From Polyangium mundeleinium (GTDB lineage Bacteria > Myxococcota_A > Polyangia > Polyangiales > Polyangiaceae), in the NCBI RefSeq assembly GCF_028369105.1, contig NZ_JAQNDO010000001.1, forward strand, positions 2,969,711 to 3,033,710: 64,000 nt of DNA. Direction: 5' to 3'. Below, in pieces: positions 16,419 through 49,488 of the stretch. The position numbers were made by a program, and so were the translations under genes. How positions within the stretch are numbered: the stretch's first letter is position 1; each line of letters begins with the position of its first letter. The notes under the pieces were generated by a model that made no database searches, was not told the DNA's origin, and saw only the letters and a program-made list of their open reading frames with translations.

Positions 16419-16550
16419 GGGATTGCCTCCTCGCCCCGATCGTCCGGGGGACGCGGGGCGTAGCACCGGTGGGTACAGGAGGCATGCCGAGGCAGGGCGG
16501 TATCTTCGGAATCGGGGGGACGCATCTCCAGAGGTCCCCCGCCCGATTTC

Positions 16551-16688
16551 GACGTGTCCGGTTCGCCCGCCGGAGCTCTCGCGCGCCATCCTGACGCGTC
16601 CGGATCGTCCTTGGGAGCTCTCGCGCGCCCTCCCGACGTGTCCGGCGCGTCCTTGGGAGCTCTTGCGCGCGATCCCGACGCGTCCGGA
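16551..16688. repeat. 42-bp tandem repeat, 3.3 copies
   Basis: Three consecutive 42-bp units start at 16551, 16593 and 16635, and a fourth begins at 16677 and breaks off after about 12 bases. Each unit opens with GACGYGTCCGG, contains GGAGCTCTYGCGCGC in its middle and ends with a variable YC-rich pair. Units 2 and 3 differ at only a few positions. The repeat lies between the stop of the hypothetical gene at 16699 and the start of the redoxin gene at 16418, both on the minus strand. A period of 42 equals 14 codons, but none of the overlapping frames looks like a real gene. Role unknown. Confidence 0.85.
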
Positions 16689-16698
16689 CGCTCGTTCT

Positions 16699-17355
16699 TC
16701 AGCCTTCCGAGCCGCCGCCCTTCTTCCGCCTCGCGCCGCTCGGCCTGGGGAAGAACTTCTCTGCGGCGGATTTTCCGAGCTCGCTGACGAGCAGACCATA
16801 CACCTTGGTCATGAGCCGCCGAAAGGCGTCCTCGGCGGCGTCGAGCCGGGTCGAGGCGAGCGACTCCGCGGTCAGGGACGCGGCGAGGGCTTTCTCGGCG
16901 GCTTCGAAGGCGGCGAGGCCGGCGGTGATCTTCGGGACGGCGTCGTTTCGGACCTCGTCATTCGCGGGGAGATGCTCGCTCAACCGCTTCTGGAGCTCGT
17001 CGTATCGCTTCTTTTCCTCGTCGAGGGGGGCGGCAGTGTAGTATCCGATGCCTTCGGGGAAGATGAGCGTATACGGCGCCTTCTTGACGGCGTCGGCGCT
17101 CCGCCCGGCGAGGCGCGCGCGCGCGTCTTGCGCGATGGTATCGAGCTCGTCGTCGGCCGCGTCGCGATCGGCGCGCGCGTCCTGCACGGGGCCCTTCGAA
17201 TCTTCCCATTCACGACCGTGCTGGAGGACGAGGAGCGTCGCCGCCTCGACGTCGGCCGCGAGTCCGGCCCGCAGGGCCCGGCGGAGGCGCCGCGAGACGT
17301 AACGGCCGTAATGGACATTGTGGTTGAACGCGGCGTCTTCGTCGGGGGGGCGCAT
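16699..17355 (-). CDS. hypothetical helical protein
   Basis: A 218-residue protein that I do not recognise. It is rich in Ala, Arg, Asp and Glu, with predicted long helices throughout (for example DARADRDAADDELDTIAQDARARL), only one short aromatic patch (TLIFPEGIGYYTAAPLD at about 97-113) and no cysteine. It ends in a basic, Gly-rich tail. There is no signal peptide or membrane segment. The ATG at 17355 begins MRPPDEDAAFNHNVHYG. The coding character is supported by a long frame with high G/C at third positions. It lies next to the 42-bp repeat and downstream of another helical hypothetical gene. Confidence 0.6.
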   Translation of the reverse strand: MRPPDEDAAFNHNVHYGRYVSRRLRRALRAGLAADVEAATLLVLQHGREWEDSKGPVQDARADRDAADDELDTIAQDARARLAGRSADAVKKAPYTLIFPEGIGYYTAAPLDEEKKRYDELQKRLSEHLPANDEVRNDAVPKITAGLAAFEAAEKALAASLTAESLASTRLDAAEDAFRRLMTKVYGLLVSELGKSAAEKFFPRPSGARRKKGGGSEG

Positions 17356-44278: not shown

Positions 44279-45384
44279 ACGACAAACGCGTCCGCGCCCT
44301 GCTCCCGATCGTCCTCGCGATCGCGGGCGGCATCCTGATCTTCAACCTGATCGCGTTCGCGTTCGGGGAAGCGCCGGCCTCGGCGTTGCGCCTCGCGTTC
44401 GAGGGCACGTGGGGCACGCCGTACGGCCTCGGCCAGGTCCTCTTCAAGGCCACGCCGCTGCTCTTCACGGGCCTCGCGTTCGAGGTCGCGCTGCGCGCGG
44501 GCCTCTTCAACATCGGCGCCGAGGGACAACTCGCGCTCGCGAGCCTCGTGGGCGGGCTCGTCGCCTCGAAGCTCCCCGCCTCGCTCCCCATGCCGATCGC
44601 GCTGCCGATCGTGCTCGCCACCGCCGCCGCGGTCGGCGCGTTCGTCGCGTTCATCCCCGCGATCCTGCGCGCGCGTCGCGGTGTGCACGAGATCATCACG
44701 GCGATCATGGTCAACCGCATCGTGGACGCGATCCTCCCGTGGACGTTCTCCACGGTGCTCGGCTCCTCCACGCTCCGCACCGCGGACATCGCGCCCGGCG
44801 CCGCGCTCCCGCGCCTCGATCGTGTCGTGCCGTCCTTCGCGGGCAGCGCCGCGAGTTTTGCGTTCCCTCTTGCGGTCGTGATCGTCTTCGTCGCGATGGC
44901 CCTGCTCGAACGCACCCGGCTCGGTCGGGAGATCCGCTGGGTCGGGTTTCGCCCCGAGGCTTGCCGCGCCGAGGGCATCGACGTCGAGCGGCGCTTGCTC
45001 CTCGCGATGCTCCTCTCCGGCGCGATCGCGGCGCTCGCCGTCTCCTCGACGGCGCTCGGGTACAAGGGGTACTACGAGCTCGGCCTCGGCGCGGGCGCGG
45101 GGTGGAGCGGCATCGCGGTCGCCATGCTCGGCCGCGGCAAGGCCGTCGGCATCGTCCTCGCCGCGATCTTCCTCGGCACGCTGGAGCAAGCCGGCCTCGC
45201 GGTGAACGCGCGTGTCCCGAAGGAGGCGATGGACGTCCTCGAAGCGACGCTCATCGTCCTCGTCGCCGTCGCGAGCCGCGTCGCGTTCAAGGGCGCGCGC
45301 GCCGCGACGAACGAAGGCCCCGAGCCTGCACCTCCCCGCGACAAACCTACCCCCACGCCTGCCTCCGAGGAGGCCCGCTCGTGA
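44275..45384 (+). CDS. BMP-type ABC transporter permease 1
   Basis: A 369-residue membrane protein with about nine hydrophobic helices, of the BPD_transp_2 group that includes NupP/YufP. It begins GTG within the stop of the ATPase gene. Typical stretches are FNLIAFAFGEAPASALRLAFEGTWGT near the start, the EVALRAGLFNIGAEGQLALAS EAA-like region and GGLVASKLP. A charged Pro-rich tail ends the protein. Together with the second permease and the ATPase it builds an importer of nucleosides or related compounds. The last bases overlap the next gene by four. Confidence 0.9.
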   Translation: MNDKRVRALLPIVLAIAGGILIFNLIAFAFGEAPASALRLAFEGTWGTPYGLGQVLFKATPLLFTGLAFEVALRAGLFNIGAEGQLALASLVGGLVASKLPASLPMPIALPIVLATAAAVGAFVAFIPAILRARRGVHEIITAIMVNRIVDAILPWTFSTVLGSSTLRTADIAPGAALPRLDRVVPSFAGSAASFAFPLAVVIVFVAMALLERTRLGREIRWVGFRPEACRAEGIDVERRLLLAMLLSGAIAALAVSSTALGYKGYYELGLGAGAGWSGIAVAMLGRGKAVGIVLAAIFLGTLEQAGLAVNARVPKEAMDVLEATLIVLVAVASRVAFKGARAATNEGPEPAPPRDKPTPTPASEEARS

Positions 45385-46292
45385 GCTCGATCTTCTCCCT
45401 CACCATGCTCGCCGAGTCGATCCGCATTGCCGTGCCGTACACGTGCGCGGCGATCGGCGGCGTGTGGGCCGAGCGCGCGGGCGTCATCCAGATCGGCCTC
45501 GAAGGCATCCTGCTCACGGGCGCGTTCACCGCGGTCGCCGTCACGCACGCGACGAACAGCCCCACGCTTGGCCTCGTCGCGGCGATCGGCGCTGGCATCG
45601 CGCTCTCGCTCGGCCACGGCCAGCTCACCGAGCGCGCCCGCGTTCATGCCGTCATCAGCGGCATCGCCTTGAACCTCTTCGCGCTCGCCGCGACCCGCAT
45701 GGGCCTGCGCGCCCTCTACGACAGCGCCTCGAACTCCCCTGGGATCGAGGCGTACCGGTTCGGCCCCACGGGCGCCACGGGCGGCGCGATGCTCCTGCGT
45801 GTCCTCGCCGATCCCGTCTTCTTCCTTGCGCTCGCCGCCGTCGCCGCGACCCCCTTCCTCCTGCAAAACACCCGCTTCGGCCTGCGCGTGCGCGCCGCCG
45901 GCGAGAACCCCGTCGCCACCGCGAGCGTCGGCATCTCCGTCACGCGCGTCCGCCTCACCGCGCTCGCCGTCTCCGGCGCGATCTGCGCGCTCGGCGGCGC
46001 ACACCTCGCCTACGACCAGCAGCGCTTCGAGTCCGGCATGTCCGCGGGCCGTGGCTTCATCGCGCTCGCGGCCGTCGTCGTCTCGGGCTGGCGCGCGGGC
46101 CGCGCCGCGCTCGCGTGCCTCGCGTTCGGCATGCTCGAAGCGCTGCAAATCGTGCTCCAGGACGAGGTGCGCAAGACGGCGATCGGTGATCTGATCCAGA
46201 CCTTGCCCTACGTCGCGACGTTGCTCGTGCTCGCGCTCGCGCCACGCCGCGCGGGCGCGCCCGAGGGACTCGGCAAACACGCCGCCGACTAA
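45381..46292 (+). CDS. BMP-type ABC transporter permease 2
   Basis: A 303-residue membrane protein starting with GTG in a GTGA overlap with permease 1. It has about eight helices and the NupQ/YufQ pattern: RIAVPYTCAAIGGVWAERAGVIQIGLEGILLTGAF, then LRVRAAGENPVATASVGISVTRVR and a late GRGFIALAAVVVSGWRAG, all usual for this permease group. Last gene of the three-gene transporter operon. Its TAA is followed directly by the phased palindrome array, with no classical terminator. Confidence 0.9.
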   Translation: MSSIFSLTMLAESIRIAVPYTCAAIGGVWAERAGVIQIGLEGILLTGAFTAVAVTHATNSPTLGLVAAIGAGIALSLGHGQLTERARVHAVISGIALNLFALAATRMGLRALYDSASNSPGIEAYRFGPTGATGGAMLLRVLADPVFFLALAAVAATPFLLQNTRFGLRVRAAGENPVATASVGISVTRVRLTALAVSGAICALGGAHLAYDQQRFESGMSAGRGFIALAAVVVSGWRAGRAALACLAFGMLEALQIVLQDEVRKTAIGDLIQTLPYVATLLVLALAPRRAGAPEGLGKHAAD

Positions 46293-46307
46293 GGTCCCGA
46301 GCGCCCT

Positions 46308-46836
46308 TGCACGCGCGCGAGGGCCTGCAACGTCCGCTCCGCGGCGCGCTCACGCCGGCGCAGAGCGAGGCAACCTCCTGCCGGCACGGCCCTTGCGCGC
46401 GTACAAAACGACGCGTGCCCGTTGCGAGGCGTGTCTTGCACGCACGCAAATCGACGCGTGCCCGTTGCGAGGCGTGCCTTGCGTGCACGCAAAACGACGC
46501 GTGCCCCTTGCGAGGCGTGCCATGCACGTGTGCAAACGCGGCCAGCGACGTTCGTTCACCGCGGTTGCACGGGTGCAACGCTCCGCCATCCCACGCCACA
46601 TTCCTGCTTGCGCGCGTGCAAACACCGCCGTCACGGGGTCGGGAGGCGCCTTGCACCGGATGCAACGCACCCCTCGCAGCCGCGAGGACCGTCTTGCATG
46701 GAGCAACGACCGTGGCTGACGCTCGACGGGGCGATTTTGCGTGCGTGCAACACACGCCGCGCAACGGCAAGCCGACCCGTTGCACCGGGGATCCCCTCAA
46801 CTCCACGCCGGCACGCCCCGCTTTGCGCGAAAGCTC
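46308..46836. repeat. array of TTGC-N6-GCAA palindromes phased at 43 bp
   Basis: Palindromes start at 46393, 46436, 46479, 46522, 46565, 46608, 46651, 46694 and 46737, exactly 43 bp apart. Arms are TTGC and GCAA around 6 variable, mainly alternating purine/pyrimidine bases (46651 has 7, 46694 has 5; 46393 reads ACAA and 46522 ATGC in one arm). Left half-sites continue at 46780 and 46823 in phase; a degenerate copy with GCAG at 46360-46363 is in phase on the left, and one copy at 46308 is shifted by one base. The first three spacers (29 bp) are nearly identical, the others are unrelated. It lies between two convergent genes. Confidence 0.9.
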
Positions 46837-46896
46837 GCGTCCTTAGCTCGCGTCCTTTTTCCGCCCGCCCTCCCCCCGTTCAACCCTCCCAACCCC

Positions 46897-49488
46897 TCAG
46901 CCAGGCCGTTTCACCACATCCACAAAGCTCTCCACCGCCCGCCCCTCAGCCATCCCGATCACCCGCGACTCCCGCGACGGCCCCGTCGACCGCACGACCT
47001 CGTCGAGCGGCACGCCCCACGCGCGCGCCAGCGCCTCCAGCACCGCGCCCGCCAGCGTGCGCAACACCGCGCGCCACGGCTCGCCGCTCGGCGCTTCTTC
47101 GCTCGGCCAGAGCGTCGGATCACGCGCATCCAGGATCGCCGGCAGGTGCATCCGCACCACCAGCACGTTCGGCGCGAACGTGATCTTCCCGCGCCACCAC
47201 GGACCACGACCGCTCTGGTGATCCCGCACGAGGAGCACCTCGTCCGGCACCACGTCCCACGCCGCGATCGCCTGCTCCGACAGCCAGCCCTTGGCGCCCT
47301 CCGCGATCGGCAGCGTGTCGAGCCGACCGCCGCACGCCCGCACGATCTGCGCGCATGCCATCTGCTCCGCCGGCTCCTTCACGAGCGCTGGCAAGAGCGC
47401 GGCTTGCTCCGACGCCCACCGCGCGAGCTCCTGCCGCTCCACCACCGGCACCACTGTCGCCTGCCGCGTCGCCCCGGGACGACCCACGAGCACGCCCGAG
47501 ATCCCTCGCATCGAGCACGCGCGCAGGCCGCCCACGGCCACCACGCCCGCGTAGGTCGGGTGGATGCAGGCGCGGCCCACCGTGTCGCCCGACGAGGTCA
47601 CGAGCGGCCGGAGGTTCTGCGCCATCTCCGGGATCTCGCGCGGCCAGAGCCTTTCGAACGGCTCGGGCTCCGGGCTCCACGTCCGGCCGAGCAACTCGTA
47701 GCCGTCGATCGTCATCCAGTCCGATGCCGGCACCACGCGTGTGCGCTTGCCATGCGCGTCCTCCACGTCGAGGTGCACGTCGAGCGCCGGACAGAGCCAC
47801 GCGCAAAGCTCCTCCAGCGTCCAGCAGCGATCGTGCCCGCGACGGTAGAAGATCCCGTCCGGCGCATCCGGCGGCGCGCGCAGCCACACCCGCACGCGTG
47901 TCCCCGCGTCGCTCATCACCTCCGCTTCCGCGGCTGCGCGCAGGATCGGGCGCGTCGTCCCGCCCGCGTAGAGCTCGAGCACGCTCGTCTCCTTGCGCCC
48001 CCGATCGGACGTGCGTGTCGTGATCCGGGCCCTTTGACCCCAAAGGAACACCGCGAACGGCCCGAGCCCACCACCGCCGCGGCGGAAGCCCTTCGCCAGG
48101 AGCCCCGGCGGATCCCGGCGCAGGAGCAGCGACGACCAGTACTCGCTCGCCGTGTCGCGCAGCGGCGCCGACAGCGCTTCTGCGGGCATCCCCGTGCCCG
48201 TGTCCTCGATTTCGAGCCAGTGCCCTTCCTCGTCCTCGCCGAGCCGCACCGTGATCGTGCCCCAGTCGCTCGGCCACTCCTCCAGCATGCGCCGCGCGCG
48301 CACCGCGCTCGCCGCGTTCTGCACGAGCTCCCGCAGCGGCATCGACGCGTCGCTCTCGTCGAGCCGCGTCGCCCCGAGCCGCTCCACGAGCGACGGGATG
48401 TCCGTCACGTGCACCCGCGTATCCACCGGCGTCCATCCCTCGACGGGGAGGAAATCCGCGAGGCGGCTCGGATCCTCCACGCCTGCCACGCCGCGCGCCC
48501 CGAGCCTCGGCCGACCTGCCTCCGCGAGGAGCGTGTCCACGATCCGGAGCTCGCGATCCACCGCGACCAGCGTGTCCATCCCGAGCCAGAACGCGGGCGC
48601 CTCTTCCACCGTGAAGGGGCTGTCGGCGAGGAAGATGAGCCGGCTGTTCGCGACGTACGGCTCGCGCAGCTTCTCTTGCAGGATCCAGTGCTCCCGCCGC
48701 GCCCCTGCGGGCCTGCGCGCCGCGCGCCAGAAATGCGGCGCGCGCGAAAAATCGATCCGCGACACGTCCGCGACGCGCAAGAGACAGGCGAGCTTGAACG
48801 CGTCCACCGTCCAGCCCGAGGGCATCCCGGCGAGCGGCGCGATCGTCTCGTGGAAGTGCTCCGGCAGCTCCGTCGCGAGCCACAGGTGGCTCCGCGCGAC
48901 GCGGCCGATCGTCGACCCGTACGCCTGCCTGAGCTCCACCGGCTCGACCAGGTGGTGCTCCTGCCCGTGCGCGTCTCCGTAAGGCGCGAGCGTGAGCCGC
49001 TCGGCGTGCCTGGCGTAGAGCGTGCGCAACGCCTCCGTGATCGCCTCTTGCTCGATGTCGGCCGGCGGCTGCTGCAACTCGGCCGTCGTCGGCGCGCGCC
49101 CGAGCTTGCGCACCAGCATGCCCACGACCGCGTCGACCCACGTGCGCTCGCCCTTCAGCGCGTCCGTCCCGCCGTGCATCATCGCCAGCGAGAGCGCGAG
49201 ATCGTGCACGACGAGCGACGACGCGAGGACGAACGCCTCGGGCGGCGTCAGCGAGAAGCTCGGCCCCGCCACCGCGTCCGCGCTGATCCACAGATCGTCG
49301 GTGTGCAAAAGATCCGAGAGGCTCGGCTCGTCGGTGCGCGCTGCGACCATCTCGTTTGCGATGGCCGTGGCGCGCCCGCGGATGCGCGAAAGCGCGTCGC
49401 GCAAGGTCGCGCGAGGTCCCGCTACGACGTCAGCCTCGCGGGGCGCGAGTGTGCTTTCCCAGAGCGTGGTCGTCTCGAGGTGCGCCAT
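46897..49488 (-). CDS. HD domain plus HSP90-like ATPase protein (putative conflict-system protein)
   Basis: An 863-residue cytosolic protein. Residues about 80-270 contain an HD-type metal pocket: TPPEAFVLASSLVVHDLALS has H95-D96 and more His occur in SHLWLATELPEHFHE and beyond. This resembles the HD-CE domain known from bacterial conflict systems. Residues about 370-560 form a GHKL (HSP90-like) ATP-binding fold: N-box LRELVQNAASAV, IEDTGTGM and RRGGGGLGPF. The remaining 300 residues look like HSP90 middle-domain material. Family members of this combination are mostly known from genomic surveys and predicted to act in defence. No toxin or nuclease neighbour is visible; it is convergent with the ABC operon and abuts the palindrome array. 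Confidence 0.72.
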   Translation of the reverse strand: MAHLETTTLWESTLAPREADVVAGPRATLRDALSRIRGRATAIANEMVAARTDEPSLSDLLHTDDLWISADAVAGPSFSLTPPEAFVLASSLVVHDLALSLAMMHGGTDALKGERTWVDAVVGMLVRKLGRAPTTAELQQPPADIEQEAITEALRTLYARHAERLTLAPYGDAHGQEHHLVEPVELRQAYGSTIGRVARSHLWLATELPEHFHETIAPLAGMPSGWTVDAFKLACLLRVADVSRIDFSRAPHFWRAARRPAGARREHWILQEKLREPYVANSRLIFLADSPFTVEEAPAFWLGMDTLVAVDRELRIVDTLLAEAGRPRLGARGVAGVEDPSRLADFLPVEGWTPVDTRVHVTDIPSLVERLGATRLDESDASMPLRELVQNAASAVRARRMLEEWPSDWGTITVRLGEDEEGHWLEIEDTGTGMPAEALSAPLRDTASEYWSSLLLRRDPPGLLAKGFRRGGGGLGPFAVFLWGQRARITTRTSDRGRKETSVLELYAGGTTRPILRAAAEAEVMSDAGTRVRVWLRAPPDAPDGIFYRRGHDRCWTLEELCAWLCPALDVHLDVEDAHGKRTRVVPASDWMTIDGYELLGRTWSPEPEPFERLWPREIPEMAQNLRPLVTSSGDTVGRACIHPTYAGVVAVGGLRACSMRGISGVLVGRPGATRQATVVPVVERQELARWASEQAALLPALVKEPAEQMACAQIVRACGGRLDTLPIAEGAKGWLSEQAIAAWDVVPDEVLLVRDHQSGRGPWWRGKITFAPNVLVVRMHLPAILDARDPTLWPSEEAPSGEPWRAVLRTLAGAVLEALARAWGVPLDEVVRSTGPSRESRVIGMAEGRAVESFVDVVKRPG

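Follow-up and report, generated by a model that had tools for sequence, protein, structure and literature searches.

Between two convergent genes of Polyangium mundeleinium lies an array of short palindromes in strict 43-bp phase (46307..46836; positions refer to the window, the whole 64,000-nucleotide stretch of DNA that was analysed, and the arrays and sites given here are unstranded). With a probability of about 0.6, this is a DNA docking array, present here as an orphan copy, from a gene-plus-array system in which a protein is presumed to bind the palindromes. The tie between the window array and the partner gene of this system, which lies far away, is drawn because the two share a palindrome. 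The wider proposal, for which the chances appear even, is a new class of two-part chromosomal elements, each pairing a small protein with an array of its own, the dyads of which are spaced about two helical turns apart. Several to a dozen distinct pairs would exist per genome, in at least two phyla and through families between which no sequence similarity is detectable, and one Polyangium pair would have its array scattered to at least eight further loci as a docking network for one protein. Such arrays are not described in the accessible text of the open-access literature searched, a scope outside which preprints and most subscription journals fall.

The window array comprises 13 positions joined by 12 steps of 43 bp, with each unit consisting of the palindrome TTGCRYSSRYGCAA and a 29-bp spacer and with some positions being degenerate. 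The initial annotation described nine TTGC-N6-GCAA sites 43 bp apart from position 46393. As a comb, this description stands well clear of chance: in the window, the highest-scoring comb of nine sites at 43-bp steps starts at 46393 and matches 64 of 72 letters, compared to at most 39 in 60 simulated first-order Markov windows, and the next best comb period, excluding multiples of 43, scores 38. However, only five of the nine sites are exact, namely TTGCACGCACGCAA (46436..46449), TTGCGTGCACGCAA (46479..46492), TTGCACGGGTGCAA (46565..46578), TTGCGCGCGTGCAA (46608..46621) and TTGCGTGCGTGCAA (46737..46750). The sites at 46393 and 46522 retain seven of the eight letters of the motif, and those at 46651 and 46694 have their right half displaced by one base, with the phase being regained inside the same unit. 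To the left, the phase extends two steps beyond 46393 via a degenerate unit at 46350 to 46307 (TTGCACGCGCGCGA). To the right, the left half-sites reported at 46780 and 46823 do keep the phase, the latter being the rightmost phased half-site. The near identity reported for the first three 29-bp spacers is likewise borne out: three tandem units with the next site (46393..46535; TRF 46404-46528, 2.9 copies of 43 bp, 89% matches) are a recent unit duplication. These three spacers raise the mean inter-unit spacer identity of the array, which is 0.42. The statement that the other spacers share nothing holds roughly between units, since the spacer letters shared between the units of an array amount to 0.397 versus 0.306 expected (31 array loci), but not between genomes. 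In an alignment judged by eye, most of the window spacers recur in the orthologous array of the Polyangium genome G003 and several in that of G002.

The array occupies most of the intergenic stretch (46293..46896) between a permease gene (BPD_transp_2; 45381..46292, forward strand) and the gene of an 863-aa HD-CE/HATPase-like protein (46897..49488, reverse strand), both of which end at the array. According to the initial annotation, absence of the phasing from homologous loci in close relatives would speak against a functional constraint. The relatives are divided on this point: G002 and G003 carry an ortholog of the array, while the array is missing in G004 and G005, in which 16-24 bp instead separate the aligned gene ends and, by eye, the two stop codons are 7 bp apart in the printed sequences. 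The contig of G001 ends at this site, and tree support for the branch deciding between gain and loss of the window array is 73.

In the 13.25-Mb genome of P. mundeleinium, the paired pattern with up to two mismatches occurs at 69 places, compared to four for a reversed control, and the matches listed group into at least nine arrays plus scattered weak ones. The refined palindrome TTGCRYSSRYGCAA has 33 exact occurrences (reversed control: seven), of which 32 lie inside arrays; a solitary regulator site was rejected because the palindrome is nearly missing outside arrays. Recurrence of the 43-bp-step pattern in related genomes, proposed initially as a check, is observed in five of the six Polyangium genomes. 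In a search of 183 genomes of the order, a looser pattern has 38, 26, 13, 11 and 3 matches in these five and none in G004; outside the genus it has one match in each of ten genomes, and the control also has one to three in each of ten others. In addition, a search of 59 relatives, the own genome included, matched four genomes, all Polyangium (control: none). A scan of genome contigs returned 11 stretches, of which four belong to uncultured bins and seven to the Polyangium genomes 6x1, fumosum DSM 14668 and 15x6. Apart from these bins, arrays with a TTGCRYSSRYGCAA-type palindrome are confined to Polyangium as far as searched. Array finding relied mostly on the palindrome pattern and thus favours intact sites.

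Relative to genes called by a codon-usage caller made for this analysis, none of 31 array loci lies inside a gene and two touch a gene edge. Flanking genes are in tandem at 15 loci, convergent at 10 and divergent at six; orthologs are counted separately here, as in the step-length, lag, Mantel and control-gene counts, so that none of these counts is independent. The convergent setting stressed in the initial annotation is therefore no property of the class, and with such mixed orientation over 31 loci neither an operator of the neighbour genes nor a terminator between convergent genes was retained as a candidate. At a further array site of the genome (C1:8472556), G002, G003 and G005 also have the array, G004 has a 28-bp gap and G001 has other genes. 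Extra genes, AAA/OLD-type ATPase-like by eye, lie between the same neighbours at this site in G003 and G001 (L149 and L148).

The initial annotation held that palindrome and spacing are retained while spacers have drifted. In favour of this, the fraction of differing comparisons among 12 dispersed copies found by pattern is 0.084 in half-sites, 0.241 in the inner six positions (mostly transitions) and 0.204 in spacers, although the bootstraps of the half-site and spacer comparison treat pairs as independent and hence overstate its certainty. Three copies found only by BLAST show, against those 12, a weaker effect on the same side (half-sites 0.118, spacers 0.219); L032, L037 and L049 were excluded from the dispersed-copy comparisons, that of half-sites with spacers included. 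Step lengths at the 31 array loci are 43 bp in 196 cases, 42 bp in nine, 44 bp in none and other values in nine. On the other hand, the spacers of one lineage, lineage A, are recognisably conserved between dispersed copies; its arrays occupy different loci in four species with a shared unit order and a nearly ungapped phase. An argument for phase constraint from indel rates was dropped, as indels per substitution show a trend but are not clearly lower in arrays than in flanks (0.079 versus 0.133).

The partner gene was found by flank comparison: sequence next to one array turns up again next to others and contains a gene, which encodes a protein of about 235 aa. Its copy in the own genome (G000:C1:8049416-8050102) has an array of the window-type palindrome 5' of the gene; a G002 copy lies at L018:2564-3268. 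The closest clade comprises six genes with 64-100% identity to the query. Each of them is accompanied by an array on its 5' side, at a distance of 129-221 bp, and this includes a paralog in G002 whose array belongs to another lineage (L041). G004, the sole genome of the six in the genus in which no full array was found, also lacks a closest-clade gene; what remains there is 92 bp of an array and, after it, sequence that by eye looks like the C-terminus of the partner gene. That the losses of gene and array coincide in this one genome is suggestive only. The family protein matches nothing in Pfam or NCBIfam, neither a DNA-binding domain nor a transposase family. It is probably mostly helical, but both single-sequence AlphaFold models are poor (pLDDT 59 and 50); given this quality and the lack of a recognised DNA-binding domain, helicity and binding are not well supported. 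The window itself contains a second gene-array pair (16550-17355). An array of the class with a 42-bp period and 3.3 copies (16550..16688; top lag 42 beside the gene) lies directly 3' of the stop codon of a 218-aa ORF (16699..17355, reverse strand), the product of which has no Pfam family and matches family alignment A2 with 82% hhalign probability (E 1e-5).

The association between gene and array extends beyond the genus. A protein search of the 183 genomes revealed 46 family places, spread over 13 genomes that also represent other genera and families. Of these places, 40 were examined, six being without a locus. The top autocorrelation lag within the adjacent 460 bp on either side is 41-43 at 35 of 40 loci (30 upstream), the weak cases L142 and L166 included, compared to 6.4% of random windows for lags 41-43 and 0.7% for 43 alone. 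Three further loci of the 40 have a lag of 44 upstream, and two (L167 and L178) have no array by top lag. By a score threshold, a 41-44-bp array lies beside 33 of 40 family loci versus two of 134 control genes (Fisher 2.6e-26), the latter being drawn from the window and Polyangium loci only, with genes beside known arrays excluded. The palindromes differ between lineages, such as CGGACACGCGTCCG with CCTGCGAATCGCAGG (L168), GATCGAACGTTCGATC with CGTCACCGTGACG (L134) and CCCCGAAGTTTTGGGG (L173). Furthermore, arrays become less similar as protein identity drops (Mantel r 0.45, p 0.001; 28 loci, that is, 28 of 35 array consensuses), a correlation that is partly due to the inclusion of orthologs. 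Chromosomes contain several paralogous gene-array pairs, and some of the arrays are found 3' of the gene rather than 5'. No neighbour gene within about 1.5 kb is common to the 40 family loci, with the largest group spanning five. A conserved operon partner was therefore rejected as a general feature; only a gene downstream of the family gene, which we take to be Uma2-like, recurs in five loci (L132, L133, L135, L136 and L142). A phage or plasmid origin was rejected as well, since five viral scans revealed no viral relatives and one DUF6261 protein has no plasmid relatives.

DUF6261 represents a second family with such arrays, from another phylum. Two stretches of the contig scan fall in a MAG labelled Parabacteroides (Bacteroidales), in which array L021 sits 5' of a DUF6261 (PF19775) gene (E 1.6e-34). 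This 2.7-Mb MAG, G183, contains 15 DUF6261 matches, a large paralog set, and most are preceded by different arrays. All 13 assessable upstream regions have a top lag of 41 or 42, or about double (82-85), with a match of 0.76-0.97, a result from one MAG with no control set of its own and with two of the 15 matches at contig ends. The other stretch in this MAG, array L023:6140-6489, is built on the TTGCACCGGTGCAA palindrome that L021 also carries, and no ORF resembling DUF6261 was seen next to it; orphan copies therefore seem to exist in that MAG too. Sequence comparison of DUF6261 with the Myxococcota family revealed no relationship (hhalign 0.8%), and the accessible open-access text contains only an apparently unrelated mention of DUF6261.

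The geometry of the arrays was compared for those with at least four units in which a palindrome is kept (11 of 13 for DUF6261, 25 of 40 for Myxococcota). A single palindrome only is found in 20 of these 36 arrays, and in 12 a second palindrome lies half a period, or about two helical turns, away. The consensus contains two palindromes in 6 of 11 DUF6261 arrays and 10 of 25 Myxococcota arrays, with their centres half a period apart to within 0.5 bp in six of six and six of ten, respectively. Paired positions in the consensuses average 7.6 versus 2.7 after shuffling, and 36 of 43 arrays lie above their shuffled level. In Polyangium, the spacer centre has, by eye and with array orientations fitted, a weak consensus symmetric about the expected second dyad. 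Self-complementarity of the individual Polyangium spacers was rejected (p 0.93).

A structured RNA had been among the roles first considered for the window array. Were the palindromes RNA stems, a greater tolerance of G-U than of A-C would be expected on the sense strand of the gene. The ratios of G-T to A-C mispairs are 53:51 in lineage A, 33:26 in DUF6261 arrays and 67:77 in Myxococcota arrays. In fixed windows of 13, 14, 15 and 16 bases, DUF6261 arrays show 12:2, 3:4, 10:13 and 18:13, so that the 13-base result points to RNA but is not repeated at 14-16 bases; Myxococcota arrays show 4:11 at 14 bases and 1:6 at 16. With no clear preference for wobble mispairs, the symmetry resembles that of DNA rather than RNA. 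In addition, the predicted pairs lack covariation (2 of 86) and Rfam has no match in window positions 45000-48000 up to an E-value of 1. Both strands have low folding z-scores (-3.6 to -5.0), although repeated palindromes alone give such values. The RNA role was rejected on these grounds. Z-DNA, which the initial annotation had derived from alternating pyrimidine/purine centres, is not supported either, because CG centres are common in the array sites and break the purine-pyrimidine alternation. Taken together, DNA-level symmetry is supported, and the palindromes on balance look like double-stranded DNA sites for a dimer.

Among the candidate roles listed initially, a protein-binding array is thus the best reading, given the gene-array association, the phase and the DNA-like symmetry. 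In the proposed mechanism, the family protein would dimerise on each palindrome. Dyads every 41-44 bp, with a half-way palindrome in some arrays, would present sites on the same helix face about every two turns, along which neighbouring dimers could assemble cooperatively. The array beside the gene might serve autoregulation or act as a nucleoprotein seed, and orphan arrays, such as that of the window, may recruit or bridge the family protein elsewhere on the chromosome. In plasmid partition centromeres bound by small proteins (ParR/parC, iteron-like), phased repeats immediately precede the gene that encodes the binding protein, and a partner motor gene belongs to the operon. The arrays resemble them in placing a helically phased array beside a gene, with binding being presumed here; no neighbour family extends beyond five of 40 loci within about 1.5 kb, and several paralogous pairs per genome are chromosomal. 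By analogy, the system would work most like a centromere-type array, without being classed as one. The gene-array association links a DNA element of strict geometry to the unexplained DUF6261 and to a family for which neither Pfam nor NCBIfam has a model. Families without a function become testable protein-site pairs, several different ones per genome, which would be useful for studying protein-site co-evolution, protein assembly on phased dyads and the organisation of chromosomes by dispersed arrays.

A mobile or selfish array, in which the gene-array module and its orphans spread as parasites and the palindromes serve as recombination or replication sites without host benefit, is an unlikely alternative. 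The six closest-clade genes lie in five different surroundings (G001, two in G002, G005, and one common to G000 and G003); elsewhere only the gene, with or without array, is shared with G000. The dispersal of lineage A with a common unit order, the presence or absence of the array at the window site among relatives and the alignment of arrays L031 and L041 at 0.183 differences without common flanks are also expected from movement. However, no target-site duplication or fixed ends are apparent by eye at the window site or in lineage A arrays, the protein has no match among transposase families and three species retain orthologous arrays. Moreover, rearrangement and fragmented assemblies could mimic movement, and the G002:C18 copy of the partner gene is at a contig end. 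Dispersed intergenic palindrome arrays with a cognate gene beside one copy are reminiscent of REP/BIME elements and REPINs/RAYT, as far as the accessible text of these papers goes (PMC2817692, PMC3733652, PMC3116915). The parts accessible give more than 100 REP copies (PMC2817692), compared to at least nine array loci here, which also have a strict 41-44-bp phase. Instead of a cognate tyrosine (Y1) transposase there is a protein without Pfam or NCBIfam match, and instead of very many single or paired palindromes nearly all exact copies lie in arrays.

Each unit of a guide-RNA array like TIGR-Tas would combine two spacers with two alternating repeats, and the array would be transcribed and loaded on a helical dimeric protein. 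The accessible description of TIGR arrays gives a 36-nt unit, processed guide RNAs of 36 nt, two alternating repeats, hypervariable spacers and a helical Tas protein with a Nop domain, with palindromic elements in a stem-loop variant (PMC12045711). On the basis of that text it is the nearest published geometry known to us, sharing alternating repeats per unit, a single adjoining gene and a protein that is probably helical. Part of the arrays do have two alternating repeats per unit of about 42 nt beside a single gene, the orphan Polyangium arrays have variable spacers and the 13-base windows of DUF6261 arrays favour G-T. Nevertheless, this reading is improbable. The unit measures 41-44 bp here, and the two hypervariable spacers of about 9 nt described in the accessible text contrast with gene-adjacent linkers that are not guide-like, their identity between units outside the palindromes being 0.71 in DUF6261 (11 arrays) and 0.61 in Myxococcota (25 arrays); only orphan Polyangium spacers are more variable. 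As further differences from TIGR-Tas as described there, the arrays have no consistent wobble bias and the family has no viral relatives in the five scans. The Nop model has no match at E<=1 in 26 family members or one DUF6261 member, though Pfam might miss a divergent Nop. Alternating-repeat arrays beside a single gene thus need not be guide-RNA systems.

CRISPR repeats measure about 21 bp or more and are accompanied by unrelated spacers and cas genes. The arrays share with them a constant short repeat and variable spacers of constant length, but the repeat is 14 bp, spacers are common to dispersed arrays and no Cas protein was found among 14 neighbour proteins scanned. Type III toxin-antitoxin systems have near-identical RNA repeats 5' of the toxin gene. 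A similar arrangement, in which the array would be a repeat RNA that neutralises the adjacent protein, agrees with the short tandem repeats that immediately precede one small gene; it is highly improbable, as units diverge strongly within many arrays, arrays also occur 3' of genes and as orphans, PADLOC has no match for four proteins scanned and the RNA-level pairing signal is inconsistent. An ordinary minisatellite, with 43-bp units born from slippage and drifting neutrally, would explain near-identical neighbouring units in some arrays and a period set by duplication at birth, but is scarcely credible with half-sites held while between-unit spacer divergence reaches about 1.4 substitutions per site with little length drift, and with arrays favouring one gene family over controls.

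Other repeats were encountered alongside these arrays. In an uncultured bin without DUF6261 matches, L019:3233-3676 is a 42-bp array of 10.5 copies with TTGCACTGTGCAA. Five places of the own genome (G000:C1:6198414, 6248395, 6301767, 6316432 and 6469405) belong to another dispersed repeat that weakly matches the paired pattern. A dispersed palindromic repeat of about 140 bp with a GAAGAACTGCGCATTGCGCAGTTCTTC core occurs at L036:4825-4965 and many other loci, sometimes near arrays, and has at least tens of copies in G000, G003 and G005 among the matches listed.
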